A stretch of DNA of 64,000 nucleotides, taken from positions 1 through 64,000 of the forward strand of contig NZ_SPDV01000004.1 of the NCBI RefSeq assembly GCF_004564275.1, read 5' to 3'. This stretch comes from Sphingomonas parva (ex Maeng et al. 2020) (GTDB lineage: Bacteria > Pseudomonadota > Alphaproteobacteria > Sphingomonadales > Sphingomonadaceae). The position numbers and the translations under genes are program-made. Below the pieces are notes generated by a model. That model saw only the letters and a program-made list of their open reading frames with translations, made no database searches and was not told where the DNA came from. This document shows positions 20,691-35,491 of this stretch, piece after piece (the first letter of the stretch is position 1; each line of letters starts with the position of its first letter).

Positions 20691-21380
20691 ATGTCTGCCC
20701 CGTTTGTCGACCTTAGCGTTCACCACCGTCCGAGCGGCGCATCCGACCGCGTCGCCTACGGCTTCACCAAGCTGCTGCGCTGGTGCGCCGACACCTTTTT
20801 CGCGGAGCGCTACGGCCACCGCGCCGTCGTTCTGGAGACCGTCGCGGCGGTTCCCGGCATGGTCGGCGCGACGATCAATCACCTCTCCTGCCTGCGCCGC
20901 ATGTGCGACGACAAGGGCTGGATCAAGACGCTGATGGACGAGGCCGAGAACGAGCGCATGCACCTGATGACGTTCATCGAGATCGCCAAGCCGACCCTGT
21001 TCGAGCGGGCCGTGATCATCGGCGTCCAGTGGGTCTTCTATCTGTTCTTCTTCGCCCTCTATCTGGTGAGCTCCAAGACCGCGCACCGCGTCGTCGGCTA
21101 TTTCGAGGAGGAGGCGGTGATCAGCTACACCCACTATCTCGCCGAGATCGACGAGGGCCGCTCCGCGAACGTCCCGGCGCCGGCGATCGCCAGGCGCTAC
21201 TGGAACCTGCCGGAGCACGCGACGCTGCGCGACGTGGTGCTGGTGGTGCGCGCCGACGAGGCCCATCACCGCGACGTCAATCACGGCTTCGCCAACGAGC
21301 TCGGCGGCCTGCCGCAGGGCAAGGTGGCGCCCTGCCCGCCGCACAATGCGCTGGAGCCGAACTGGAAAAAGGCGGCCTGA
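20691..21380 (+). CDS. aox: Alternative oxidase (cyanide-insensitive ubiquinol oxidase)
   Basis: A 229-aa diiron membrane-bound ubiquinol oxidase that reduces oxygen to water without proton pumping. All four metal-binding blocks are visible: [34 protein letters not shown] and [12 protein letters not shown], giving the expected four Glu and two His ligands. A hydrophobic stretch ([18 protein letters not shown]) corresponds to the monotopic membrane helices. The length is short because bacterial enzymes lack the plant transit peptide. The start at 20691 has GGAAAGAAAGG upstream. A single gene; having it and a cbb3 oxidase in one window shows a branched respiratory chain. Confidence 0.97.
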
Positions 21381-21443: not shown

Positions 21444-21911
21444 TCAGGGACGGGTGAAGCGCGCCGCGTAGCAGCCGCGCTTCGCGTAATGCGCCTGAAG
21501 GTAGGCGACCGCGGGATCGGCCAGGAAGTCCTCGATCAGCGGCGTCAGGGCCGCGCCGTCTGCGAGATCGGCCGCCACCATCATGTGATCGGCATCGAAG
21601 GCGCGAAGCGAGATCGGGCGGCGGACGAGCGCCTCCGGCAGGCTGTCGACCGCGTCCCACGCTTTTTCCGCCCCCTCCCGCACGAAGATCGCGTGACTGG
21701 CGCGATACGGCGTGTCGGCAGGCTGATGGACATAGTTGAGCAGGAGCAGGGACTCGCCCCTGCCCGCGTCGCGCAGCGCGATCCGGTCGGGAAAGCCGAA
21801 ATCGGCATCGGCCACGACGCGCCGGACGCCCTCGGCGGCGAGCGCCTGATCGGAGAGGCCGTAGAGACGGCGGAACGGTGCAGGATCGAGACCGGTAATC
21901 CGGAAGGACAT
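21444..21911 (-). CDS. DUF1203 domain protein
   Basis: A 155-aa soluble protein of family DUF1203. Typical features are the start MSFRITGLDP, FPDRIALRDAG, LLLNYVHQPADTPY and RASHAIFVREGA, followed by LRAFDADHMM and a Cys near the C-terminus (KRGCYAARF). Function of the family is unknown. ATG 21911 was chosen over an upstream in-frame start at 21983 because the family begins here. It is convergent with aox and divergent from the hypothetical gene that follows. Confidence 0.85.
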   Translation of the reverse strand: MSFRITGLDPAPFRRLYGLSDQALAAEGVRRVVADADFGFPDRIALRDAGRGESLLLLNYVHQPADTPYRASHAIFVREGAEKAWDAVDSLPEALVRRPISLRAFDADHMMVAADLADGAALTPLIEDFLADPAVAYLQAHYAKRGCYAARFTRP

Positions 21912-22047
21912 GGCGAGACTCCTCGGTTGAAGCCCCACCCTGCCCTGCATTGCCGCGACGCGCGTCCCGCCGCTTGCGCTCAATGCCGACGGACCGATTG
22001 CGCCCGTCGTGCGCCGGGGGCACTATCGACACGTGCAAACGATCGGG

Positions 22048-22449
22048 ATGCGGAAGATGGCGGATTTCGTCGGCGACAACCCGGTGGTGGCGAGCGGGAG
22101 CCTGATCGCGCGCGGCGACGAGCAGATCGTCGTCGGGGACGATGCGGGACATTCGCTGACGCTGCGCTGGAGCGACGCCGACGCGGCGCAGGCGCACGGC
22201 AGCCCGTCGGCGGCGATCCTGGATCTGCCCGGGCGGGTAGCGACGCCGCTCGCCGGCGCCTTCGTCTTCCACGCCGAGGGCGTCTATCTGCAATTGCGCT
22301 ATTCGGTCGAGCCGCTCAGCGGCGGGCTTCGCCGGGTGACCTACACGATGATCGAGGACATGGCCGCGCTCCTCGCCGAAGCCGAGGCGCCGGGCCTCGT
22401 CCACCATGCGCCGGGCGAGGCGACGCGGATGAGCGTCGGCCCCGGTTGA
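22048..22449 (+). CDS. Hypothetical protein
   Basis: Function not recognised. About 133 aa, soluble, mostly beta-strand-like (VVASGSLIARGDEQIVVGDD, then LTLRWSDADAAQ, GAFVFHAEGVYLQLRY, LRRVTYTMIEDM). The start is uncertain: ATG 22048, ATG 22057 or an upstream GTG at 22009 are all in frame and none has a strong Shine-Dalgarno. The stop lies immediately before the convergent stop of the acyl carrier protein gene. Confidence 0.5.
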   Translation: MRKMADFVGDNPVVASGSLIARGDEQIVVGDDAGHSLTLRWSDADAAQAHGSPSAAILDLPGRVATPLAGAFVFHAEGVYLQLRYSVEPLSGGLRRVTYTMIEDMAALLAEAEAPGLVHHAPGEATRMSVGPG

Positions 22450-22450
22450 G

Positions 22451-22711
22451 CTAGACGGAGATCGCCGCGGCGAGCGGCCCCGGGGCAAGCTTGTCGCGCA
22501 CCAGGCGCAGTGCCTCGCCGACGGTGGCGCAGCACTCGCTTTCCTCGTCCGCGATGACGATGCCGAGATGGTGCTCGAGCAGCATCGGCAGCTCGATCAG
22601 ATCGAGCGAGTCGGCGCCGAGATCGTCCCGGAACGACGCGGCGTCGCCGGCCCGGGAAGGCGCGACACCCAGATGATCGGCGATCAGCTTGCGGATCGAC
22701 TCGCGATCCAT
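22451..22711 (-). CDS. Acyl carrier protein
   Basis: An 86-aa carrier protein. The phosphopantetheine attachment site LGADSLDLIEL has Ser35, and the acidic helix after it fits ACP recognition. Unlike housekeeping AcpP it has an unusual ECC pair (residues ~59-61) and an Ala-rich C-terminus, and no fatty-acid genes are nearby, so it is probably a specialised ACP for a dedicated lipid or secondary pathway (inference). It follows the 56-aa gene by 3 bp in the same direction and should be co-transcribed with it. Confidence 0.85.
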   Translation of the reverse strand: MDRESIRKLIADHLGVAPSRAGDAASFRDDLGADSLDLIELPMLLEHHLGIVIADEESECCATVGEALRLVRDKLAPGPLAAAISV

Positions 22712-22714
22712 CGC

Positions 22715-22885
22715 TCAGGCCGCCTCGGCGAGGCGCGGATCGCCATCCGCTCCGAAGACCCGATCGAGATAGAGGCTGGCGAGCTGATAATGGAAGCGCA
22801 CCAATTGCTCGCTCGCCGAGGCCTGGGCGAGGGCGATCTCCTGCTCGGCGCGGCGATAGAAATAGTCCCGGTCCGCTTCGGCCAT
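22715..22885 (-). CDS. Small helical protein, ACP operon partner
   Basis: A 56-aa, strongly helical protein (ADRDYFYRRAEQEIALAQA, then SEQLVRFHYQLASLYLDRVFG). The start at 22885 has GGAGG six bases upstream. It is the first gene of a two-gene unit with the acyl carrier protein. No function recognised; the tight spacing suggests it works with or modulates the ACP. Confidence 0.65.
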   Translation of the reverse strand: MAEADRDYFYRRAEQEIALAQASASEQLVRFHYQLASLYLDRVFGADGDPRLAEAA

Positions 22886-23091
22886 GACTGCCTCCGTGCG
22901 GGCGGCCGCGACGAGGCGGCGACCCTTCCGCAACATCTTTGCTGCAGCGCAACATGAATGCGCCTTCGGCCGCGCAAGGTCAATCACGCGGCCGGTGAAA
23001 TGTTCGCGCACGCGAGGTTTCGCGGCGGGGCGCAAGGAGCGGGCGGCGGACCGATCTGGGCCGCAGGCCGAGGCCGCATTATGTCAGGGTC

Positions 23092-23673
23092 ATGTCCCGA
23101 ACGCCCTCGCGCGCGCTTCGCCGGTGCGCCACCCTCGCCCTGCTCGCGGTCGCGGCGAGCTGCTCCAGCCCCCGTGAAGCACCGTTGGTGCGCGAGGCGG
23201 CGCGGGCGGAGCCGGCCTCCCTCCCCTCGCCGGCCGAGGCGAAGCGGCTGCTGATCGCGCTTCACAATCGCGAGCGGCAGGCGACGGGCGCCGCGCCGCT
23301 CGTCTGGGACGAGAGCCTCGCCGCCGGCGCCGCCGCCTACGGCGCGATCCTCGAGCGAACGGGATCGCGGATCGCGCATTCCAGGCCGGAGGATCGGCCG
23401 GGGCTGGGCGAGAATCTCTGGGTCGGCACCCACCGCCAATATTCGCTCGGCGAGATGTTCGGCGGCTGGGCCGCGGAGAAAGCGCAATTCGCGCCCGGCA
23501 TCTTCCCGGAAGTGAGCCGCACCGGCCGCTGGCAGGACATCGCCCATTACACCCAGATCATCTGGAAGGGCACGACGCGGGTGGGCTGCGCGATCCACCA
23601 GGCCGCGAAATGGGACTATCTGGTCTGCCGCTACGCGCCCGCCGGCAACGTCGTCGGCCAGCGGGTACCTTGA
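23092..23673 (+). CDS. CAP (SCP/PR1) domain lipoprotein
   Basis: A 193-aa protein with a lipoprotein signal ([10 protein letters not shown], Cys near residue 24) followed by a CAP domain. CAP signature elements are [13 protein letters not shown], the [12 protein letters not shown] helix, GENLWVG, and the [16 protein letters not shown] block with the conserved His and Glu/His cavity residues, then [14 protein letters not shown] proteins are extracytoplasmic; bacterial roles are poorly known. Convergent with hemA, the two stops only about 10 bp apart. Confidence 0.9.
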
Positions 23674-23683
23674 TCCTCGAAGG

Positions 23684-24898
23684 TCAGGCGGCCATCCGCA
23701 TCTCGAGCCGGTCCCAGATCTCGGTGAGGGCGGATGCGAGCTCGTGCATCATCGCTTCATCGTGGCTGGGGCCGGGGGTGAAGCGCAGGCGCTCGGTGCC
23801 GCGCGGCACGGTCGGGAAGTTGATCGGCTGGACGTAGACGCCGTATTCGGCGAGCAGGATGTCGCTGATCTTCTTGGCCTTGACCGGATCTCCGACCATC
23901 AGCGGCACGATGTGGGTGGTCGACGCCATCACCGGCAGGCCCGCCTCGCGGAAGATGGCCTTCAATTTCGCGGCGGCGGCCTGCTGGCCCTCGCGTTCGA
24001 CGCTCGAGGCCTTGAGGTGGCGGACGCTGGCGAGCGCGCCGGCGACCAGCACCGGCGACAGCGAGGTCGTGAAGATGAAGCCGGGCGCGTAGGAGCGGAT
24101 CACGTCGACGATGTTGCGATCGGCGGCGATATAGCCGCCCATCACGCCGAACGCCTTGCCGAGCGTGCCCTCGATGATGGTCAGGCGGTGGGCGACCCCG
24201 TCGCGCTCCGAGATGCCGCCGCCGCGCGCGCCGTACATGCCGACGGCATGGACCTCGTCGAGATAGGTCAGTGCGTTGTAGCGGTCGGCAAGGTCGCAGA
24301 TCGCGGCGATCGGGGCGACGTCGCCGTCCATCGAATAGACGCTCTCGAACGCGATCAGCTTGGGCGCCTCGGGATCGGCGGCGGCGAGCAATTCTTCCAG
24401 ATGGGCGAGATCGTTGTGGCGGAAGATCTGCTTCTCGCAGCCCGAGGTGCGGATCCCCGCGATCATCGAGGCGTGGTTCAGCTCGTCCGAGAAGATGATG
24501 CAGCCGGGCAGGATCTTGCCGAGCGTCGAGAGCGTCGCCTCGTTCGAGATATAGCCCGAGGTGAACAGCAAAGCCGCTTCCTTGCCGTGGAGATCGGCAA
24601 GCTCGGCCTCGAGATCGACATGGTAATGGGTATTGCCGCCGATGTTGCGGGTGCCGCCGGAGCCGGCGCCGACGTCGTGCAGCGCCTCCTCCATCGCCGC
24701 GATCACGGCCTCGTGCTGGCCCATCGCGAGATAGTCGTTCGAGCACCAGACGGTGATCGGCTTCGGACCATTGTGCCCGGCAAAGCAGCGCGCGTTCGGG
24801 TAATTGCCCTTGTTGCGCAGGATGTCGATGAACACCCGGTAGCGACCCTCGGCGTGAAGCCGGTCGATGGCGGAGGCGAAGATCTGGGCATAGTCCAT
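23684..24898 (-). CDS. hemA: 5-aminolevulinate synthase
   Basis: A 404-aa PLP enzyme that condenses glycine and succinyl-CoA to 5-aminolevulinate, the first step of heme synthesis in alphaproteobacteria (Shemin pathway). Visible features: NDYLAMGQH, the glycine-rich [32 protein letters not shown], and the PLP Lys in [11 protein letters not shown]. The length is standard. Its Shine-Dalgarno (GGGGAGGG) overlaps a 14-bp stem (24905-24939), so translation may be controlled. It is the last gene of the leftward cco-hem-nnrS block. Confidence 0.97.
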
Positions 24899-24904
24899 GT
24901 CCCT

Positions 24905-24939
24905 CCCCTAGTGCCGGCCGAGGACGCCGGCACTAGGGG
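24905..24939 (-). promoter_or_regulatory. Hairpin overlapping the hemA ribosome binding site
   Basis: A perfect 14-bp stem: CCCCTAGTGCCGGC at 24905-24918 and its complement at 24926-24939, with a 7-nt loop. On the mRNA, the 3' arm ends in AGGGG and runs straight into AGGGACATG, so half of the hemA Shine-Dalgarno is paired. No T-tract follows. It may gate hemA translation or act as a processing or termination site after nnrS. Confidence 0.6.
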
Positions 24940-24957
24940 AAAGCCCTGAGGCCGCGA

Positions 24958-26163
24958 TCAGATCCGCCCGTCGACCCGCGGCGCGGCCAGCTTGGGCGCA
25001 TAGGCCAGGACGAAAAGCAGGAACGCCCCGCCCCACGCCGCGCCGCCGATCTTCAGCAGCAGCAGATAGTCGAGCGGCAGCACCGGGCTCAGCACGCGCA
25101 GCAGCGCTCCGAGCGTGACGAGGACGTAGACCGCGACCGTCCAGCCGTCGGCGACCAGCGGACGGCCGGTGTGTCCGAGCGAGGCGCGGGTCATCACCGC
25201 CAGGGTGATCGTGCCCATCGCGCCCGCGGCGAGCGCATGCAGCGCCATCGTCGAGGGCAGTGCCGCGCCGCTGAGCGCGAGCCCGAGCAGCACGAGACCG
25301 ACGGGCAGCCAGGCATAAGCCAGGTGGAGGATGAAGAGCAGCGGATCGGTGCGCGTCCGCAGGCCCGACCAGCGCGCCAGCCGGGCGGCGTGAAGCAGCC
25401 CCGCCACGATCAGCAGCGGACCGGTCGCGCGCGCATCCGGCGCGAAGGTCCAGGCCGCGAGCGCCAGCGCCGCGCCTGCCACGACCGTCTTGTCGAAGCC
25501 GTTCGGCATGGCCGGCGCGGTCGCCTCGCGGCCGGCCTTGACCAGCCAGTTGCGAGTGAAAGCCGGGATGATGCGGCCGCCGATCATGCAGATGAGCAGG
25601 AGCACGATCGAGAAGCCGGCGCGCACCGCCAATCCCGCCGGCAGCGAGGCGCCCATCGTCTCGGCGTGGTGGAGGCCGTTCGCCGCAGCGAACAGCAGGA
25701 TGATCAGCGGCATCGGCAGGTTGCGGTTGCCCGCGGCGAGGATCTCGCGTGCCGCCAACGCCGCGGCGGCCACGAAGAAGCCGACGTCGAGCAAGGCGGC
25801 GGCGAGCGGCGGCACGACCGACGAGAACAGCAGGGCAAGGCGTGCCGACAGCCACCAGGCGATCGCCGCCGCGACCGGAATACCGGCAAAGGCGGGACGC
25901 CCGGTCCAATTGGGGATCGCTGCCGAGAGGAAGCCGACGATGATCGCGCCGAGATAGCCGAACAGCATCTCATGCTGATGCCAGGCGAGCGGCGCCATTG
26001 CCGTCGGCAGCACGATCTCCCCGGCAAGCGCTCCGATCCAGAGCGCAGCGACGACGACGGCCCAGAGCGCGCCGGCCGGAAACAGAAGGCGATAGGCGCC
26101 GCGCAGCACGGGTGGCGCGGCGGCGGCCCTGGCGCTGCGAACGGAAAGGATGTCGGTCGTCAT
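24958..26163 (-). CDS. nnrS: NnrS family heme-copper membrane protein
   Basis: A 401-aa polytopic membrane protein with about twelve hydrophobic helices. NnrS family marks include APLAWHQHEMLFGYLGA near the N-terminus, GRIIPAFTRNWL in the middle and LALHALAAGAMGTITLAVMTRASLGHTGRPL later. NnrS proteins bind heme and copper and protect cells against nitric oxide stress in several proteobacteria. Its place between hemN and hemA downstream of the cbb3 genes ties it to low-oxygen or NO-exposed growth. ATG 26163; the upstream small gene ends 25 bp before. Confidence 0.92.
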   Translation of the reverse strand: MTTDILSVRSARAAAAPPVLRGAYRLLFPAGALWAVVVAALWIGALAGEIVLPTAMAPLAWHQHEMLFGYLGAIIVGFLSAAIPNWTGRPAFAGIPVAAAIAWWLSARLALLFSSVVPPLAAALLDVGFFVAAAALAAREILAAGNRNLPMPLIILLFAAANGLHHAETMGASLPAGLAVRAGFSIVLLLICMIGGRIIPAFTRNWLVKAGREATAPAMPNGFDKTVVAGAALALAAWTFAPDARATGPLLIVAGLLHAARLARWSGLRTRTDPLLFILHLAYAWLPVGLVLLGLALSGAALPSTMALHALAAGAMGTITLAVMTRASLGHTGRPLVADGWTVAVYVLVTLGALLRVLSPVLPLDYLLLLKIGGAAWGGAFLLFVLAYAPKLAAPRVDGRI

Positions 26164-26188
26164 CGTCAGGCTTCCGGACAGGTGTGGA

Positions 26189-26401
26189 TCAGGCTCTCTT
26201 CTTCTTCGGCATCACCGCGGCGGCGTGGCAGGCCGTTGCACCCTGCGGTCCATCCCGGTCACGGCGCGGGATATGGATCGGCACCTGCCCGCCCAAGCAG
26301 AGGCTGACCAGGATGGTGTCGGACGCATTTCGCGCCATCGGCGCCTGGCTGCCGAACAGCATCAGCGGCGCCAGCGCGAGCAGGGAGAGGCTAGATGGCA
26401 T
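26189..26401 (-). CDS. Small membrane or exported protein between hemN and nnrS
   Basis: A 70-aa protein starting with a hydrophobic segment (SLSLLALAPLMLFG) that is a signal peptide or anchor, then LVSLCLGGQVPIHIP and a tail with ATACHAA and KKKRA. The single Cys-His element (ACHAA) and earlier Cys could bind metal or heme, but this is speculation. The ATG at 26401 lies inside the last codons of hemN (11-bp overlap) with GGGGAGG upstream, so translation is coupled. Not recognised as a named family. Confidence 0.6.
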   Translation of the reverse strand: MPSSLSLLALAPLMLFGSQAPMARNASDTILVSLCLGGQVPIHIPRRDRDGPQGATACHAAAVMPKKKRA

Positions 26402-27710
26402 TGCTGAAACGCCTCCCCTCGGGCTGGCGATAGACGTCGAAGACGGAGGCGATGGCGCGGGCGTAGGGCCTGCCCGCCTCGGCGATGCGGAGCATCGGCC
26501 CGTCCCAGGCGAGCAGGCCGAGCGCCTCGAACGGTGCCAGGCGCTCGGTAAGGTCCGCGTCGCGATGGCCGCCGGCATGAGCCTCGCCATGGCAGAGCAG
26601 GCTTTCGACGATCTTGCCCCGGCGGTGATCGTCGCAGGTGCGCACGATGCCCCTGGACGCAGTCAGTCTGCCGGACGTCGCCAGCATGCGATAGCGGCCG
26701 CTGTTCTTCTCGTTCTGCACGATCAGGCCCGGGAACTGGCTGATCGCGGTCGCACCAAGGCCGATCAGCACCTGCGAGCCGTCGTCCGTGAAGCCCTGGA
26801 AATTGCGGTGGAGGCGCTTCTCGCGCGCCGCGACGGCGATCGCATCGCCAGGCCGCGCGAAATGGTCGAAGCCGATCGGATCGTAGCCGGCACGGGTCAG
26901 GAACCGATGGCCGAACTCGGCCTGGCCGAAGCGGGCTGCGACGTCGGGCAGCAACGCGGCATCGATCCGGCGCTGGCGCGGGATCATGTGGGGCACGTGC
27001 GCGTAGCCGAACAGCGCGATCCGCTCCGGCGCCATCTCGGCGGTCGCATCTAGTGTCGCTTCGAGCTCGCCGAGCCCTTGCCCCGGCAGCCCGTACATCA
27101 GGTCGAAGTTGATCGAGGCGACGTCGGCGTTGCGCAGCGCGGCGACGGTGCGGCGGATCAGCACCTCGTCCTGGATGCGGCCGATCGCCGCCTGCACCTG
27201 CGGATCGAGCGTCTGGACGCCGAGGCTGGCGCGCTCCACGCGCGCTTCGGCGATTGCCTCGTACCAGGGCTCCTCCAGCGTGCGCGGATCGAGCTCGATC
27301 GAGATCGAAGCCGCCTCGGCGCCGAAGGCGCTCCGGACATGGGCGAGCAGCGTGCCGAACTGCGCCGGGCTCAGCGCATTGGGGCTTCCCCCGCCGAACG
27401 CGATGCGCCGCGCACGGCCGCGGCCGCCGAGCGCCGCCGCGACCAGATCGATCTCGGCATGAAGGGCGTCGAGATAGGCGCCAACCCGCTGGGTGCGGGT
27501 GGCGGCACCGGTGTTGCACCCGCAATACCAGCAGATCTCGTGGCAATAAGGGATGTGGAGGTAGAGCGAGACGCCGGCATCGTCAGCCACCGCCGCCAGG
27601 GCCGCAGCCATGGCCTCGGCGCCGACGTCGCCGAACTCGGCTGCGGTCGGGTAGGACGTGTAACGCGGCACCGGCCGGGCGAGCAGCTCGGGATGAAAGG
27701 TCCAGCTCAC
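26391..27710 (-). CDS. hemN: Oxygen-independent coproporphyrinogen III oxidase
   Basis: A 439-aa radical SAM enzyme that decarboxylates coproporphyrinogen III to protoporphyrinogen IX without oxygen. The 4Fe-4S motif is CHEICWYCGC with Cys56, Cys60, Cys63 and the additional Cys65 that marks true HemN rather than HemW. GGGSPNALSP, SLGVQTLDP and DLMYGLPGQ are standard radical-SAM elements. It follows ccoS with a 4-nt overlap and belongs to the micro-oxic block, consistent with heme supply for the cbb3 oxidase when oxygen-dependent HemF cannot work. Confidence 0.96.
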   Translation of the reverse strand: MSWTFHPELLARPVPRYTSYPTAAEFGDVGAEAMAAALAAVADDAGVSLYLHIPYCHEICWYCGCNTGAATRTQRVGAYLDALHAEIDLVAAALGGRGRARRIAFGGGSPNALSPAQFGTLLAHVRSAFGAEAASISIELDPRTLEEPWYEAIAEARVERASLGVQTLDPQVQAAIGRIQDEVLIRRTVAALRNADVASINFDLMYGLPGQGLGELEATLDATAEMAPERIALFGYAHVPHMIPRQRRIDAALLPDVAARFGQAEFGHRFLTRAGYDPIGFDHFARPGDAIAVAAREKRLHRNFQGFTDDGSQVLIGLGATAISQFPGLIVQNEKNSGRYRMLATSGRLTASRGIVRTCDDHRRGKIVESLLCHGEAHAGGHRDADLTERLAPFEALGLLAWDGPMLRIAEAGRPYARAIASVFDVYRQPEGRRFSNAI

Positions 27711-27880
27711 GCGTGAGGCTCCTTGGAGACGGCGGCCGGCGCGTCGTCGTCGATCAGGATGCGCAATGCGGCGCCGTCCATGTCGTCATACTGGCCGGAC
27801 TTCATCGACCAGAAGAAGGCGGCGAGCCCGACGAGGCCGCAGAACAGGGCTATCGGGATGAGGAGGACGAGCCCGGTCAT
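27707..27880 (-). CDS. ccoS: cbb3-type cytochrome oxidase assembly protein CcoS
   Basis: A 57-aa single-span membrane protein: helix GLVLLIPIALFCGLVGLAAFFW, then the family motif MKSGQYDDMDG, then an acidic segment ending ILIDDD. CcoS is needed for cofactor insertion into cbb3 oxidase. It overlaps ccoI by 4 nt (ATGA) upstream and hemN by 4 nt downstream. Confidence 0.95.
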   Translation of the reverse strand: MTGLVLLIPIALFCGLVGLAAFFWSMKSGQYDDMDGAALRILIDDDAPAAVSKEPHA

Positions 27881-30003
27881 CGCGCCGCGCTCCTCAGCCG
27901 GAGGGCGTTGGCGACGACGATCACGGAGGAGCCGGACATCGCCAGCGCCGCGACGAGGGGCGTGACCAGACCGGCGAGTGCCAGCGGGACGGCGGCGGTG
28001 TTGTAGAGAATTGCGATCGCGAAGTTCTGGCGAACGATCGCCATGGTCCGGCGGGCGGCGCGTATCGCCGCCGCAACCGGGGCGAGGCTGTCTCCGAGGA
28101 ACACGGCGTCGGCGGCATTCTGGCCGACGTCGCTGGCCGAGGCGGGCGCGAGCGAGACGTGGCCGGCGGCGAGCGCGGGGCCGTCGTTGAGCCCGTCGCC
28201 GACCATCAGCACCTTGTGTCCGGCGCGACCGAGCCGCTCGATCGCGTCGAGCTTGTCCTGCGGCGTCATCGCCGTCTGGGCGGTGAGGTGAAGCGCACGC
28301 GCGACGGGCGCGACCGCTTCGGCACGGTCGCCCGAGACGATCGAGGCCGGGAGCCCGAGGCGCTCCATCTCCGCGACGGTCATTGCGGCGTCGGGACGCA
28401 TCGAGTCGCGGAACCGAAGAACAACGGGCGCCGCGCCGGCGAAGACGAAGGCGACGGCCAGCGCCTCGCCCGCGACGCCGGTCGCGCGGCAGAGCAGGAC
28501 GGGCGCGCCGTTCCAAAGGCCGCGCATGCCGAAGCCCGGCTCCTCGACGACGTCGGTGACGTCGGCGGGCGCGACGCCCTCTGCCTCGAGCGCCTTGCGC
28601 AGCGCCTGGCTGAGCGGATGGCGGCTGGCGCGTGCGAGCCCGAGTGCGATCGGGCGATGCTCCGGGGAAAGCGGCGCGAGGCTGTCGAGCTCCGGTCGGC
28701 CGAGGGTCAGCGTGCCGGTCTTGTCGAACAGCACGCGATCCGCCTCGGCCAGACGCTCGAGCGCCGAGCCGTCCTTGACCAGCACGCCGGCCCGCATCAG
28801 CGCCCCGGCGGCGACGATCTGGGCGGCGGGAACCGCGAGGCCGAGCGCGCAGGGGCAGGTGATGATCAGCACGGCGGCGGCGATCAGCAGCGCTTCGTGC
28901 CAGCCGGCCCCGGCGAGCATCCAGCCGACGAAAGAGGCGGCGGCGAGGGTGTGCACCGCCGGCGCGTAGAGGCGCGCGGCGCGATCGGCGATGCGGACGT
29001 AGAGCGAGCGCGGCTGGGCCGCCTGTTCCATCAACCGGGCCATGTCCACGATCGCCGTGTCGGCGCCGGCGGCGGTCACCCGGACGGTCAGCGGCGCATC
29101 GAGATTGAGCGTGCCGGCGAGCACCTGGTCCCCCTCCCCCGCCCTTATCGGCGAGCTCTCGCCGCTGATCAGCGAGCGATCGAGGCTGCTCGCGCCGGCG
29201 ATCACGATCCCGTCGGCGGCGAGCCGCTCGCCGGCGGCAACGAGCATCGTCATGCCCGGCGCCAGCGCTTCGGCTGCGACCCACTCACTGCTGCCGTCCT
29301 CGCGGGCCACCATCGCGCCCGACGCGGTCTGCTTGAGCAGAGCGGTGACGCCGTCGCGGGCGCGATCCCGCATCACGCTGTCCAGCACCCGGCCGACGAG
29401 CAGGAAGAAAAGCAGCATCACCGCGCCGTCGAAATAGGCGTGGGGGCCGCTGGTCAGCGTCTCGAACAGGCTCAAGGCGGTGACGAGCAGGACACCGATC
29501 GAGATCGGCACGTCCATGTTGGTACGCCCGCTGCGCAGCGCCGCCCAGGCCGAGCGGAAGAAGGGCCGGCCGGAATAAGCGACGGTAGGGATCGCGATCA
29601 GCGCGGACAAAGCGTGAAAGAGATCGCGCGTCGCACCGGCCGCGCCGGACCAGACCGCGACGGACAGCAGCATCACGTTCATCGACGCGAAGCCGGCGAC
29701 GGCCGTGGCCTTGAGCAGGCCGCGGCTCTCGGCCCGATCGGCGGTGACGCCGGCAGCGCGGATCGGCTGCGCCTCGAAGCCGACGGCGGCGATCGCGGCC
29801 TGGAGCTCGGGGAGCTGGAGTTCGGCGACATGATCGAGCGTCAGCTGACGAGCGGTGAAATTGACCCGGGCGAGCGCGATGCCGGGATTTGCCGCGAGAC
29901 CGTTCTCGAGCTTCGCGATGCAAGCGGCGCACCGCATCCCCGGCACGGCGAACAGGCTGCGCGCGAGCGGCGCCGCGGCGTCGAAAGCGACGGCGGCGCT
30001 CAT
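27877..30003 (-). CDS. ccoI: Copper-transporting P-type ATPase CcoI (FixI)
   Basis: A 708-aa P1B-type ATPase that delivers copper for the CuB centre of cbb3 oxidase. An N-terminal metal-binding domain has GMRCAAC (Cys25, Cys28). Membrane helices follow, with the CPC ion motif in ITCPCALG, the phosphorylation site DKTGTLT, GDGLNDGPAL and the TGES-type loop (SLISGESSPI). The start is fixed by a 4-nt ATGA overlap with ccoH; the frame is open further upstream but that part is non-genic. FixI-type members export slowly and serve oxidase assembly rather than copper resistance. Confidence 0.95.
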   Translation of the reverse strand: MSAAVAFDAAAPLARSLFAVPGMRCAACIAKLENGLAANPGIALARVNFTARQLTLDHVAELQLPELQAAIAAVGFEAQPIRAAGVTADRAESRGLLKATAVAGFASMNVMLLSVAVWSGAAGATRDLFHALSALIAIPTVAYSGRPFFRSAWAALRSGRTNMDVPISIGVLLVTALSLFETLTSGPHAYFDGAVMLLFFLLVGRVLDSVMRDRARDGVTALLKQTASGAMVAREDGSSEWVAAEALAPGMTMLVAAGERLAADGIVIAGASSLDRSLISGESSPIRAGEGDQVLAGTLNLDAPLTVRVTAAGADTAIVDMARLMEQAAQPRSLYVRIADRAARLYAPAVHTLAAASFVGWMLAGAGWHEALLIAAAVLIITCPCALGLAVPAAQIVAAGALMRAGVLVKDGSALERLAEADRVLFDKTGTLTLGRPELDSLAPLSPEHRPIALGLARASRHPLSQALRKALEAEGVAPADVTDVVEEPGFGMRGLWNGAPVLLCRATGVAGEALAVAFVFAGAAPVVLRFRDSMRPDAAMTVAEMERLGLPASIVSGDRAEAVAPVARALHLTAQTAMTPQDKLDAIERLGRAGHKVLMVGDGLNDGPALAAGHVSLAPASASDVGQNAADAVFLGDSLAPVAAAIRAARRTMAIVRQNFAIAILYNTAAVPLALAGLVTPLVAALAMSGSSVIVVANALRLRSAAR

Positions 30004-30461
30004 TGCACCGTCTCGATGAAGGCGGCGCGGTCGGCGCCGCGCACCACCTCGAGGTGGAGGTACCAGCGGCCGGCGGGAAGCGGGTAATCGCTTTCGTAGC
30101 GGCCCGGCCCCGCGGAGACGAAGCGCACCGCGACCTCGCCCTCGCGGCCCACCGGGTGGCGGGCGACCGCGCTCACCAGCGCGCCGGCGAGCGGCTTGCC
30201 GGCCACGCCCAGCGTGACCCCAACCCTGCGGTCGCTGCCGAGCGTGACCGCATGCTGCCAGCCCAGCGCCTTCTGCGCCCGCGCCTCGGCGAGCCAGCGG
30301 TTGAACTGCTGGCTGGCGACATAGGAATTCTCGACCACCTTGCCGCCGAAGGTGCGGGTGGCGAAGGTTGCCATCGTCAGATTGACCGCGATGATCACGC
30401 CGAAGAAGGCGATGAGGATCCCGGTCATGTGCCAGCCGGTGAAGCCGCGGGTCGGTGTCAT
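30000..30461 (-). CDS. ccoH: cbb3 oxidase assembly protein CcoH (FixH)
   Basis: A 153-aa protein with one N-terminal membrane helix (GILIAFFGVIIAVNLTMA) after the FTGWHM motif characteristic of FixH, and a periplasmic domain with NSYVASQQFNRWL and a beta-rich C-terminus. CcoH stabilises CcoP and the assembled oxidase. It sits between ccoG (9-bp gap) and ccoI (4-nt overlap). The Shine-Dalgarno GGGGGA overlaps the end of ccoG. Confidence 0.93.
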   Translation of the reverse strand: MTPTRGFTGWHMTGILIAFFGVIIAVNLTMATFATRTFGGKVVENSYVASQQFNRWLAEARAQKALGWQHAVTLGSDRRVGVTLGVAGKPLAGALVSAVARHPVGREGEVAVRFVSAGPGRYESDYPLPAGRWYLHLEVVRGADRAAFIETVQ

Positions 30462-30470
30462 GCAGTCCCC

Positions 30471-31922
30471 CTAGGGCCGCTCGAACACGGCCTTGGTGCT
30501 GTCGCTTCCGCCTTCGGGGTCGAGCGCCCGGGCGGTGAAAACGAATTCGTCGCGTTGTTCTTCGCCGGGCGGGACGATGACGAATATACGGAATTTCCCG
30601 AGGGCGTCGGGCGCCACGCGGACGGCGACGTGCTTCGCCGCCGTCTCCCGGCTGCCGCCCTCCAGCCACATGCGGCCGCCGGCGAGATCCTCGAGCCCGA
30701 TCTCGAAGGCACGCGGGCGGGCCTGCATGTTGCGGATCTTGACGGTGAAGGCATTGCGCACCTGGCCGTCGGAGAGCCGCACGTAGACGGGATTGCGCTG
30801 CTGCTGCGCGCTGATGTCCACGCGGGTGCGCTCGCCGAGCGCGAACAACATGGCGAAGCCGATTGCCGCCCAGGCGGTGAAGTAGATCAATGTGCGCGGG
30901 CGCAGGATCGTCTTGAGCAGAGGCCTGCGCGGCTCCCCCGCCTTCTCCGCCTCGCAATCCTCGAAGGTCGCATAGTCGATCAGCCCGCGCGGCCGCCCGA
31001 CCTGCGCCATGACCTTGTCGCAGGCGTCGATGCACAGGGCGCAGGTGATGCAGCCGACCTGCGGGCCGTTGCGGATGTCGATCCCGGTCGGGCAGACGGC
31101 GACGCACTGATTGCAATCTATGCAGTCGCCGAGCTTCAGGTCCGCCAGCGTGGCCTTCTTGGTGCCGCGGGCGCGCGGCTCGCCGCGCCAGTCCTTGTAG
31201 GTGACGATCAGCGATTTCTCGTCGAGCATCGCCGTCTGGATGCGCGGCCAGGGGCACATGTAGATGCAGACCTGCTCGCGCAGCAGCCCGCCCAGAGTGA
31301 AGGTGGTCGCGGTCAGCACCGCCACCGTTCCATAGGCAACGATCGCCGCGTCTCCGGCGAGGAAGTCCCGCGCCAGCGTCGGCGCATCGGCGAAGTAGAA
31401 GATCCAGGCGCCGCCTGTGGCGGCCGAGATGGCGAGGAAGCTCGCATATTTGGCGACGCGCTTCGCCAGCTTGGACGCGGTCCACGGCGCCTTCGCGAGC
31501 TTCATCTGGGCGTTGCGATCGCCCTCGATCCAGCGCTCGACGTGCTGGAAGAGATCGGTCCACACGGTTTGGGGACAAGCGTAGCCGCACCAGGCTCGGC
31601 CGACCGCCGAGGTGACCAGGAACAGGCCGATTCCGGCCATGATCAGCAGACCGGCGACATAATAGAATTCGTGCGGCCAGATCTCGATGCCGAACATGTA
31701 GAAGCGGCGGCCGGCGAGATCGATCAGCACCGCCTGATCCGGCGCATAGGCGCCGCGATCCCAGCGCAGCCAGGGCGTGACGTAATAGATGGTCAGCGTC
31801 ACCGCCATGATCAGCCATTTCAGGCGGCGGAATCTGCCGTCGACCGCCTTGGGATAGACGGGCTCGCGCCTGGCGTAGAGGCTCTTCGGCTTGACGCTGG
31901 TGAGATCGGACGGGCTGGCCAT
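30471..31922 (-). CDS. ccoG: cbb3 oxidase accessory ferredoxin protein CcoG (FixG)
   Basis: A 483-aa membrane protein with about five helices and two cytoplasmic 4Fe-4S clusters. The motifs are CIDCNQCVAVCPTG and CITCALCIDACDKV, plus the WCGYACPQTVWTDLF and CIYMCPWPRIQ elements typical of FixG. A C-terminal Ig-like domain follows the last helix. CcoG reduces copper during oxidase biogenesis. First of the ccoGHIS group, 41 bp after ccoP with a small hairpin in the gap. Confidence 0.95.
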   Translation of the reverse strand: MASPSDLTSVKPKSLYARREPVYPKAVDGRFRRLKWLIMAVTLTIYYVTPWLRWDRGAYAPDQAVLIDLAGRRFYMFGIEIWPHEFYYVAGLLIMAGIGLFLVTSAVGRAWCGYACPQTVWTDLFQHVERWIEGDRNAQMKLAKAPWTASKLAKRVAKYASFLAISAATGGAWIFYFADAPTLARDFLAGDAAIVAYGTVAVLTATTFTLGGLLREQVCIYMCPWPRIQTAMLDEKSLIVTYKDWRGEPRARGTKKATLADLKLGDCIDCNQCVAVCPTGIDIRNGPQVGCITCALCIDACDKVMAQVGRPRGLIDYATFEDCEAEKAGEPRRPLLKTILRPRTLIYFTAWAAIGFAMLFALGERTRVDISAQQQRNPVYVRLSDGQVRNAFTVKIRNMQARPRAFEIGLEDLAGGRMWLEGGSRETAAKHVAVRVAPDALGKFRIFVIVPPGEEQRDEFVFTARALDPEGGSDSTKAVFERP

Positions 31923-31936
31923 TGTGTGCTCCTAGA

Positions 31937-31958
31937 TCCTCCCCGCCTGCGGGGAGGA
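31937..31958 (-). other. Short hairpin between ccoP and ccoG
   Basis: Perfect 10-bp stem TCCTCCCCGC and GCGGGGAGGA with a 2-nt loop. It separates the structural ccoNOQP genes from the assembly ccoGHIS genes and may lower or stabilise transcript levels across the junction. It resembles other GC-rich hairpins at 56151-56170 and 58940-58962. Confidence 0.5.
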
Positions 31959-31963
31959 GACGC

Positions 31964-32872
31964 CTATCGGCTCGCCGTCTGGACCGGAGCGGCGCCCTCG
32001 CCGCCGCCCAAGGAGTGGACGTAGGCGGCGAGCATCTTGATCGTGACCGGATCGAGCCGGCCGCCCCATTTCGGCATGACGCCGTAGCGGCTGTTGGCGA
32101 TCGTCGCCTGGATCGTCTCGGAGTCGCCGCCGTAGAGCCAGATCGCGTCCTTGAGGTTCGGCGCGCCGACCGCGCGGTTCCCCTCGCCGCCGGCGCCGTG
32201 GCAGGAGGCGCAGTTCTGGGCGAACAGGGCGCCGCCGCGCTGCGACGCGGCGCCGGGCTTCTGCTGGCCCGAGATGGTGCGGACATGGGCGGCGAGATCG
32301 CCGATCTCCTCGGCCTTCAGCATCCCGTCGCGGCCGAACGCCGGCATCTGCGAGAAGCGGGTGGCGTCATGGTCCGGCTGCCGGGTGCCGTGGGTGATCG
32401 TATATTCGATCGCCTTCAGATCCCCGCCCCACAGCCAATCGTCGTCGTTGAGGTTAGGGTAGCCCTTGGAGCCGGCGGCGCCGGAGCCGTGGCAGGCGAC
32501 GCAATTGACCCGGAAGGCGGCGCGGCCGCCCTCCACCGCCGCCTGCATCAGCGCCGGATTGGCGGGCAGCTGCTCGACCGGCGTTGCGGCGAGCGCCTTG
32601 AGGAGAGGCGCCTTCTTCGCCTGCTCGGCGGCGAGCTCCTGCTCGAGCTGGGCGCGGCTCGACCAGCCGAGCGTGCCGCCGGTGGCGCGGTCGATCAGCG
32701 GCCAGGCCGGGAACAGCACCATGTAGACCACGCCCCAGGCGATGGTCGCGTAGAAGGCCCAGAGCCACCAGCGCGGCAGCGGCGTGTTCAGCTCCTCGAT
32801 ACCGTCCCACTCGTGACCCATGGTCTCGGTGCCGGTCGGCTGATCGATTCTCTTCTGCTTGTCGTCAGCCAT
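31964..32872 (-). CDS. ccoP: cbb3-type cytochrome c oxidase subunit CcoP (diheme cytochrome c)
   Basis: A 302-aa subunit that passes electrons from soluble or membrane cytochrome c to CcoO. An N-terminal membrane helix (WWLWAFYATIAWGVVYMVLFP) is followed by two cytochrome c domains with CVACH (Cys124, Cys127, His128) and CASCH (Cys221, Cys224, His225), each with distal Met ligands in PAFG and MPKWGG regions. Start at 32872 overlaps the end of ccoQ by 8 bp. Confidence 0.97.
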   Translation of the reverse strand: MADDKQKRIDQPTGTETMGHEWDGIEELNTPLPRWWLWAFYATIAWGVVYMVLFPAWPLIDRATGGTLGWSSRAQLEQELAAEQAKKAPLLKALAATPVEQLPANPALMQAAVEGGRAAFRVNCVACHGSGAAGSKGYPNLNDDDWLWGGDLKAIEYTITHGTRQPDHDATRFSQMPAFGRDGMLKAEEIGDLAAHVRTISGQQKPGAASQRGGALFAQNCASCHGAGGEGNRAVGAPNLKDAIWLYGGDSETIQATIANSRYGVMPKWGGRLDPVTIKMLAAYVHSLGGGEGAAPVQTASR

Positions 32873-33023
32873 GGTCGCTGTCCTCGAAGATCATGTTGGC
32901 GGCGTCGCGGTTGCGGCCGCGGTTGCGGGGCAGGAAGGCCCAGCCGGTGAAGGCGAGATAGACGAGGGCCATGGCGAGCAGGCCCCAGCTGTCGGCGAAG
33001 TGGCGGAAGGTCTCGTAGCTCAT
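32865..33023 (-). CDS. ccoQ: cbb3-type oxidase subunit CcoQ
   Basis: A 52-aa protein with one membrane helix ([19 protein letters not shown]) and a charged C-terminal tail ([18 protein letters not shown]), the usual form of CcoQ, which stabilises the complex. It starts with a 4-nt overlap with ccoO and overlaps ccoP by 8 bp. Confidence 0.9.
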
Positions 33024-33754
33024 CGCGCCTTCTCCTGCGGGGCGGCGGCTTCGAAATCGACCAGGGTGCCGAGCATCTGGAGATAGGCGACGAGGGCATC
33101 CATCTCGGTCAGCCGCGACGGATCGCCGTCGAAATCGCGGACCTGCGCCTTCGGGTAGCGCTTCACGAGCGCCGCGGTGTCCGCATCCGCATTGGCCTGG
33201 TTCTTCAGGTCGTCGTTCGCAGCCGCGATCGCCGCCTTGTCGTAGGGCACGCCGACGCGGGCCATGGCGGTGAGGTGTGCCGCCATGTCGCCCGCCTTGA
33301 GCTCGCGATCGGCCAGGAAGGCATAGCCCGGCATGATCGATTCCGGCACGACCGAACGCGGATCCTTCATGTGCTGGACGTGCCATTCGTCCGAATAGCG
33401 GCCGCCGACGCGGGCGAGGTCGGGACCGGTGCGCTTCGAGCCCCATTGGAACGGGTGATCGTACATGCTCTCGGCGGCGAGGCTGTAGTGGCCGTAGCGC
33501 TCCGTCTCGTCGCGGAACGGCCGGATCATCTGGCTGTGGCAGCCGGAGCAGCCCTCGCGGATGTAGATGTTGCGGCCGGCGAGCTCGAGCGGGGTGTAGG
33601 GGCGCACGCCCTCCACCTTCTCGACGGTGGAGTCGATCCAGAAGAGCGGCGCGATCTCGACGATGCCGCCGATCGTGACGACGAGGAAGGCGAGCACGCC
33701 GAGGAGGGTGACGTTCCGCTCCAGCCGGCCATGGTCGAAGAACTTGGTAGCCAT
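33020..33754 (-). CDS. ccoO: cbb3-type oxidase subunit CcoO (monoheme cytochrome c)
   Basis: A 244-aa membrane-anchored cytochrome c. One N-terminal helix ([21 protein letters not shown]) is followed by the heme site CSGCH (Cys69, Cys72, His73) and conserved [16 protein letters not shown] and [17 protein letters not shown] segments. A distal Met is available in IMPGYAFL. It is 18 bp after ccoN and overlaps ccoQ by 4 nt. Confidence 0.97.
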
Positions 33755-33772
33755 GTCTTTTCGTCCTTTGGC

Positions 33773-35491
33773 TTATTCGGCGGCGACGAGCGGCGCGTCG
33801 GGCTGGTTGGCGGGAATGCGCGGCGCGCGCTGCCGGCCGGTTGGGCCGGCCGAGGGCAACGGCCGGTCCCTGGCGGGGTCGAAGGCGGCGTCGCTGAGCG
33901 GCGCTTCCTCGCGCAGCCGGCCCTTCACGGTCATCCAGCAGTTGAAGACCATGATCAGGAAGCCGGAGAGGTAGAGCAGGCCCCCGACCGAGCGGATGAC
34001 GTACATCGGGAACATCGCGGCGACGACTTCGGAGAAAGCGTAGACGAGGTAGCCGTCAGCGCCATACTCGCGCCACATCAGGCCCTGCATGATGCCGGCC
34101 ACCCACATCGCGGCGGCGTAGAGAACGATGCCGACGGTCGCGAGCCAGAAGTGCCAGTTGATCATGCGCAGCGAGTAGAGGCGGGTGCGGCCCCACAGGC
34201 GCGGCACCAGGTAATAGACGCAGGCGAAGGTGATCATGCCGTTCCAGCCGAGAGCGCCGGCGTGGACGTGGCCGATCGTCCATTCGGTGTAGTGGGACAG
34301 GCTGTTGACCGTCCGGATCGACATCATCGGACCTTCGAAGGTCGCCATGCCGTAGAAGGCGAGCGCGATCACCATCATGCGGATGATCGGATCGGTGCGG
34401 ATCTTGTCCCACGCCCCGTTGAGGGTCATCAGGCCGTTGATCATGCCGCCCCAGCTCGGCATCCACAGCATGATCGAGAAAACCATGCCGAGCGTCTGCG
34501 CCCAGTCGGGCAGCGCCGTGTAGTGGAGGTGGTGCGGGCCCGCCCAGATGTAGAGAAAGATCAGCGACCAGAAGTGGATGATCGACAGCCGGTAGGAATA
34601 GACCGGCCGCTCCGCCTGCTTGGGGACGAAGTAATACATCATCGCCAGAAAGCCGGCGGTGAGGAAGAAGCCGACGGCGTTGTGGCCGTACCACCATTGG
34701 GTGAGCGCATCCTGGACGCCGGCGAAGGCGGAATAGGATTTGGAACCGACCAGGCTGACCGGGATCGTCAGGTTGTTGACGATGTGGAGCATCGCCACGG
34801 TGACGATGAAGCCGAGATAGAACCAGTTGGCGACATAGATATGGGGCTCGCGGCGGCGCGCCACGGTGCCGACGAAGACGGCGAGATAGGCAACCCAGAC
34901 GGCGGTCAGCCACAGGTCCACATACCATTCGGGTTCGGCATATTCCTTCGACTCGGTGATGCCGAGCACGTAGCCGGTCGCCGCGAGGACGATGAACAGC
35001 TGGTAGCCCCAGAACACGAAGCGGGCGAGGCCCGGGAAGGCGAGCCGGGCACGGCAGGTGCGCTGCACCACGTAGAAGCTGGTCGCGATCAGCGCGTTGC
35101 CGCCGAAGGCGAAGATCACCGCCGAGGTGTGCAGCGGCCGCAACCGGCCAAAGCTGGTATATTCGAAGCCGAGGTTCAGCGCGGGGAAGGCGAGCTGGAG
35201 CGCGATGAACAGGCCGGCGGCAAAGCCGGCGACGCCCCAGAACAGGGTGGCGATCACACCCCAGCGGATCGGCTCGTCGTCATAGACGCTCTGGTCGGGG
35301 CGCGGCGCGACGATACCCGCCGCCGCATTCCCCGCGTTGCGCAGCGACCAGACCATCGCCGCCATCGCCGCGACCGCGACGATCGCGAGGTGCACCGAAA
35401 AGCCGAAATCGGCCGAGGCGCCGACCAGCAAGGTCGCGACCACGGCCAGGAGCAGCCAGCCGCCGCTCTTCATCACCATCGTTTCCATCAT
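33773..35491 (-). CDS. ccoN: cbb3-type cytochrome oxidase catalytic subunit CcoN
   Basis: A 572-aa heme-copper oxidase subunit with the low-spin heme b and the binuclear heme b3-CuB centre. Heme and CuB His ligands are in [37 protein letters not shown] and the [11 protein letters not shown] block. About twelve helices follow an extra N-terminal one. It oxidises cytochrome c with high oxygen affinity. First gene of the ccoNOQP operon; the promoter should lie in 35492-35781, where two TAGGG-N4-TCCC motifs occur, but no FNR/FixK box TTGAT-N4-ATCAA was found. Confidence 0.98.

Follow-up and report, generated by a model that had tools for sequence, protein, structure and literature searches.

RNA thermometers of the ROSE and fourU types have imperfect stems, which melt in the physiological temperature range. 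In phage T4, the long early transcripts of gene e form a hairpin and are translated about 100-fold less, and the RNA made from two late promoters, which lie just upstream of the site, is without the 5' portion of that hairpin, according to PMC3014915. A reference title within the same source names mobE of phage Aeh1. The puf operon of Rhodobacter capsulatus has an intercistronic stem-loop, which is a terminator of mRNA decay according to the title of the paper (Chen 1988, cited in PMC5927463). In R. sphaeroides, there are two 5-aminolevulinate synthase genes, hemA and hemT, where hemA is under FnrL and PrrA, as stated in PMC8913508.

The locus compared here with these systems lies in a window of 64,000 nucleotides (the whole stretch of DNA that was analysed), where a long hairpin stands between nnrS and a second 5-aminolevulinate synthase gene, hemA2. 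The features of the locus are given below in the direction of reading.

27707..35491, minus strand: cbb3 oxidase and assembly genes fixS, fixI, fixH, fixG, ccoP, ccoO and ccoN (Pfam, NCBIfam)
26391..27710, minus strand: hemN, oxygen-independent coproporphyrinogen III oxidase (TIGR00538)
24958..26163, minus strand: nnrS (PF05940)
24904..24940, minus strand: perfect 15-bp stem-loop, with the 5' arm in the RNA at 24940-24926, the loop at 24925-24919 (7 nt) and the 3' arm at 24918-24904 (sequence and stem searches)
24901..24909, minus strand: Shine-Dalgarno-like AGGGGAGGG of hemA2 at -11 to -3, with six of its nine bases (-11 to -6) inside the 3' arm (sequence, pairing probabilities)
23684..24898, minus strand: hemA2, second 5-aminolevulinate synthase, with an ATG start (TIGR01821, 668 bits against a cut-off of 339)

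The stem begins 17 nt past the stop codon of nnrS (24960-24958), and the 3' boundary of the hairpin is at -6, which is 5 nt ahead of the ATG of hemA2 (24898). The intergenic gap between the two genes is 59 nt, and the hairpin takes 37 of them. The sequence-only reading had described a perfect 14-bp stem running into the Shine-Dalgarno sequence of hemA. The stem is perfect and does enter the Shine-Dalgarno sequence, but its length is 15 bp, with an outer U-A pair added; the gene is hemA at the family level, although the genome has two copies.

The hairpin alone has a predicted energy of -33.8 kcal/mol. It is the longest perfect stem in the 64-kb window at loop lengths of 3-15 nt, where the runner-up has 11 bp, and the maximum in 30 simulated first-order Markov windows of equal length was 13 bp. 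The 121-nt stretch with the hairpin folds at -64.6 kcal/mol, compared with -48.9 ± 4.3 kcal/mol for 200 shuffles (z = -3.7), one of which was equal. The hairpin is real and far exceeds what chance would give. In the 4.49-Mb genome, the exact arm and core occur once, with zero mismatches. A dispersed (REP-like) repeat was considered and rejected, where the matches to the arm with at most three mismatches were below the backward-pattern control in the genome, and numbered 13 in the window against 13.9 expected.

The genes around the hairpin are co-directional, in the order ccoN, ccoO, ccoP, fixG, fixH, fixI, fixS, hemN, a small ORF, nnrS and hemA2, which is the last. The best explanation found is that the hairpin is the gene-end stem-loop of the cbb3/hemN/nnrS row, and that it covers the Shine-Dalgarno sequence of hemA2 incidentally. 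The probability of this reading is put at roughly 0.47, and it is tentative to that extent. Its main support comes from the place that long perfect stems take in this genome. The base rate was determined in 464 kb of the genome, consisting of the window and 400 kb of contigs C1 and C2, where the genes were called with a crude codon-usage caller and one gene adjoining a stem looks spurious. Of the 22 perfect stems with 11 bp or more, 18 lie at -20 to +60 nt after a called stop, as do all 11 stems of at least 12 bp, compared with 6.2% of random placements (12,000 trials, with 4,000 for each of three stretches). For stems of at least 10 bp, the proportion after a stop is lower (30 of 53). Within 40 nt ahead of a called start lie three of the 22 stems, namely that of the window, one at 35 nt, and one next to the apparently spurious gene, which is 92 nt past the stop of another gene and has a T run behind it. 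The counts after stops and near starts indicate that long perfect stems as a rule follow a stop, and that it is unusual for one to overlap a ribosome site. The window hairpin, a stable stem-loop soon after the nnrS stop codon, falls within the gene-end class.

The composition behind these stems was also compared. At most two T are found in the 9 nt past the stem in 11 of the 18 gene-end stems. When the last four stem bases are counted together with the next 9 nt, eight of the 18 have at most two T (U-poor) and ten have at least three. The window hairpin, with a single T, is one of the U-poor eight. It does not have the form of an intrinsic terminator: the GC-rich stem is present, but the U tract is missing (one T in the next 9 nt), and no intrinsic terminator was called at the hairpin.

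According to the gene-end reading, a 3'-terminal stem-loop would form in the RNA past the nnrS stop and would block exonuclease decay or help to end the nnrS message, as other U-poor post-stop hairpins of the genome may do. Because the gap between nnrS and hemA2 is so short, the 3' arm covers the Shine-Dalgarno sequence of hemA2. Translation of HemA2 from any transcripts that read through from nnrS would be slight, and the protein would come mostly from RNA whose 5' end lies within or past the 5' arm, or else be made in small amounts.

The predicted accessibility of the hemA2 start bears on the last point. Opening the region from -15 to +10 of hemA2 is predicted to cost 29.7 kcal/mol, compared with 4.7-11.4 kcal/mol for 24 of the 25 hemA1 starts of the genus (the start of L034 was unrecognised) and 7.9-12.9 kcal/mol for the starts of nnrS, hemN, AOX and CAP in the window. 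None of 200 shuffles of the 60-nt hemA2 leader matched its opening cost. Since the Shine-Dalgarno sequence is predicted to be paired and the opening cost is large, poor translation from long transcripts is expected, and the proposal of the sequence-only reading that the hairpin hides the start agrees with this prediction. When the 5' end of the RNA is trimmed to -30, the opening cost falls to 15.3 kcal/mol; for RNA cut at -30 or nearer, a residual cost of 12-18 kcal/mol is left, which is above all 24 hemA1 starts, so that the relief of the hemA2 start is incomplete. The other hemA2 genes of the genus have predicted opening costs of 9.5 (G001), 12.7 (G007) and 21.5 kcal/mol (G004), and start burial is thus predicted in two of the four. 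The start of the G004 gene (L037), whose start codon was chosen by the analyst, is buried in the prediction by another structure, in which it pairs with its own coding region, with no upstream hairpin; one of 200 shuffles was as high.

The hairpin and the gene junction were then compared with those of relatives. In the survey of hemA leaders, which covered 28 upstream regions including the window (L034 was dropped because its start was unrecognised by the pattern), none of the 27 other leaders in the genus had a perfect stem of more than 8 bp within 120 nt upstream. In the 70 nt that follow the nnrS stop, none of the 19 nnrS relatives tested had a stem of more than 7 bp, so that the hairpin is not a conserved feature of nnrS either. 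Of 80 nnrS loci fetched, 29 were tested for hemA in their flanks (up to 5 kb, shorter at contig ends); none of them had it, and the control locus L009 was positive. The hemA2 genes of the three relatives G001, G004 and G007 stand behind other upstream genes, and the hairpin is absent there, as is expected if the hairpin belongs to the end of nnrS and not to hemA2. As far as the relatives read go, the hairpin appears private to this genome. A plasmid search gave no record covering 80% of the query, and the two hemA regions inspected in it have different neighbours.

Several observations count against the gene-end reading: the hairpin is not conserved at nnrS ends, it has no U tract whereas ten of the 18 gene-end stems have at least three T, a scan of 23500-27000 gave no sigma-70-like promoter, and the relief on trimming is incomplete. 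The crude gene calls of the base-rate survey and the lower proportion among stems of at least 10 bp count against it too. In the same part of the window, no FNR-type box with at most two mismatches was found in 21598-27295. Over the window as a whole (1-64000), FNR-like boxes TTGATNNNNATCAA with at most two mismatches number 17 against 6.2 expected, which is an excess. An alternative oxidase gene (PF01786) lies at 20691-21380, close to the cbb3 cluster.

The reading frame of hemA2 is intact, and a near-identical gene, hemA1, is found elsewhere in the same genome on contigs C36 and C22, both of which end within the gene. The proteins of hemA1 and hemA2 are 95% identical over residues 1-88 and 99% identical over residues 45-404, and the start codon is TTG in hemA1 and ATG in hemA2. 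In several other genomes, the ORF preceding hemA1 resembles MurI, judged from translations, and an annotated Sphingomonas parapaucimobilis record has the order murI-hemA. Many hemA1 leaders (L019-L043) share a TTGCGAACCGTTCTCACTGG-like motif, seen by eye, and none was seen in the leader of hemA1 of this genome (L040) or before hemA2. This motif resembles an iron-regulator box.

A search of 26 genomes of the genus gave a hemA match in 25. Two full copies were found in G001, G004 and G007 besides the genome of the window (G000), and G009 has two overlapping hemA fragments at contig ends. The second copy sits behind a universal stress protein-like gene in G001 (Pfam Usp) and in G007 (likeness of translation), and behind an acetyltransferase-like ORF in G004 (judged from translation), where a Crp/Fnr-type regulator is nearby (Pfam). 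The hemA pairs within G000, G001, G004 and G007 (window 23684-24898 with L010/L040, L016/L137, L018/L042, L037/L043) have a DNA identity of 95-97%, and the five pairs compared between G000, G001 and G007 have 89-92%. In a tree of 14 hemA sequences, with two of 16 not recovered, the copies of the same genome pair with a support of 0.998-1.0. Because the identity is higher within genomes than between them and the copies of a genome pair in the tree, these sequences indicate that the hemA copies evolve in concert, probably by gene conversion. Many of the differences between the copies are at the beginning and the end of the gene.

Outside the genus, 159 family genomes were searched for second copies among the matches listed, and then 20 two-copy genomes. 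The second copies in these 20 genomes are 56-62% identical, with one exception of 79% (G109). The upstream stretches of family hemA genes had a readable start in 15 of 20 cases (pattern-based), plus G053 C10, and most were of the hemA1 type by inspection. Second hemA copies were also seen near genes that look like low-oxygen genes, judged from translation, namely CcoN-like (G172), NorB-like (G109) and NirK-like (G004) genes (loci L142/L165, L164, L169).

A first alternative is that hemA2 is only co-transcribed with nnrS, and that the hairpin acts as an intercistronic throttle, which would keep the output of HemA2 low compared with that of the oxidase genes, while some translation would come from reinitiation by ribosomes leaving nnrS. 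The common direction of the genes from ccoN to hemA2 and the predicted pairing of the Shine-Dalgarno sequence are consistent with it, and a weak second copy would be tolerable given the other hemA. However, with the stop codon 17 nt ahead of the stem, a terminating ribosome would probably be unable to open the hairpin, and the hemA2 genes of the three relatives lie behind other genes without such a hairpin. This arrangement is considered possible but rather unlikely.

The long inverted repeat might instead act as DNA, namely as a protein-binding operator, with its 5' arm being a conserved promoter element of hemA2. The element concerned is the following.

24931..24951, minus strand: CCTCNG-N6-CCCNNAGTG, a candidate element upstream of hemA2 that overlaps the 5' arm, with weak statistics; in three relatives, a similar element stands 33-34 nt ahead of hemA2

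In the leader alignment, CCTCNG-N5/6-CCCNNAGTG stands 32-34 nt before the start of all four hemA2 genes found in the genus, which is what speaks for an operator. Against this, the pattern was drawn with the window sequence included, and its matches per genome (1, 1, 1 and 3 in G000, G001, G004 and G007) are no higher than those of the backward control (1, 1, 1 and 4). With a consensus that leaves the window out, the window scores 14 of 19, a value which 3.3% of random 120-nt leaders reach anywhere and 0.4% reach at the right distance. The same score is reached anywhere in two of 24 hemA1 control leaders, five rows at other places in the window have 15-16 of 19, and the closer second copies of other genera (G053, G109, G172, G178) score 11-13 of 19. 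Among 397 family genomes, the pattern has four matches, one of which is the window. At the other three loci (L127, L129 and L130, with L127 read in part), no HemA match was obtained in a run made without a positive control, where the same method succeeded at nnrS loci. An operator is an unlikely reading of the hairpin. As a separate matter, the alignment suggests that the candidate element may be a lead for the hemA2 promoter. If it does mark the promoter, the RNA of hemA2 itself could begin past the 5' arm.

Next in order comes a neutral palindrome, produced for example by templated repair of an imperfect inverted repeat, which would lower the expression of a dispensable second hemA. The stem is absent in the relatives read, the other hemA encodes nearly the same protein, and hemA was beside nnrS at none of the 29 loci tested, all of which would fit such an origin. 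On the other hand, long perfect stems are strongly confined to gene ends in this genome, which argues for use, and the frame of hemA2 is intact. This origin is regarded as doubtful, a little more so than the operator.

The gene-end reading can also be extended so that one palindrome has three roles: it would form the 3' end of an operon for low-oxygen respiration, lock the ribosome site of hemA2 in RNA that reads through, and contribute its 5' arm to the promoter or operator of hemA2. The second 5-aminolevulinate synthase would then answer only to its own promoter, and the locus would be a chromosomal counterpart of T4 gene e; the burial of the G004 hemA2 start would be a parallel solution. 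This combination is considered improbable.

The sequence-only reading had proposed translational control of heme synthesis by heme, temperature or a protein, and had named a stem not conserved in relatives, together with stem-breaking mutations that leave translation unaffected, as refuting it; the stem is absent from the 27 other hemA leaders and the 19 nnrS ends, which agrees with the first half of that refutation. The Shine-Dalgarno bases at -11 to -6 have a predicted unpaired probability of at most 0.10 from 20 to 70 °C, which argues against a thermometer. An RNA thermometer was rejected as a candidate, since a perfect stem of this kind is predicted not to melt in the physiological range. 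In Rfam, no family reached the threshold in the window, and the weak leader matches were far below the gathering scores. A known riboswitch or conserved leader RNA was likewise rejected, with no Rfam family and no conserved structure in the relatives read. A ligand-, protein- or temperature-responsive regulator, which would fit the position over the synthase start, the fold more stable than shuffles and the paired Shine-Dalgarno sequence, is very improbable in view of the perfect stem with bases paired up to 70 °C, the lack of an Rfam family, the absence from all 27 other hemA leaders and a 59-nt gap that, with a 37-nt hairpin in it, probably leaves little room for a sensor domain. Sensing of heme finds no support, and the regulatory reading is right only in the predicted burial of the start.

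If the gene-end reading is true, the locus would be a clear natural example of a hairpin that stands at the end of an operon and, in addition, insulates the following gene translationally. It would also be a caution that the preceding gene can be the owner of a hairpin found over a start codon, and matching long perfect stems to stop codons would be a quick way to separate the two cases in a GC-rich genome. A literature search on translational regulation of hemA or 5-aminolevulinate synthase by a stem-loop gave no title on a bacterial hemA leader. What is new here would at most be the way in which the roles are combined.

Compared with the known systems, the hemA2 hairpin stands over the Shine-Dalgarno sequence as the hairpins of ROSE and fourU thermometers do, but it is predicted not to melt as they do. 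The puf stem-loop is likewise stable and lies between genes of one row (cited in PMC5927463), whereas the hairpin here overlaps the ribosome site of the next gene, and its role in decay is putative. In contrast to hemA and hemT of R. sphaeroides, the two copies here are nearly identical in DNA and evolve in concert, and hemA2 has no FNR-type match in the stretch searched around it. A further likeness is to phage T4, where gene e (lysozyme), soc, 49 and I-TevI have, like hemA2, the Shine-Dalgarno sequence and/or the start buried in a helix, according to PMC3014915; that of hemA2 is predicted to lie inside a stable helix in the same way as in gene e. The gene here, however, is a chromosomal 5-aminolevulinate synthase gene, its internal promoter is only putative, and its trimmed RNA is predicted to be still structured.
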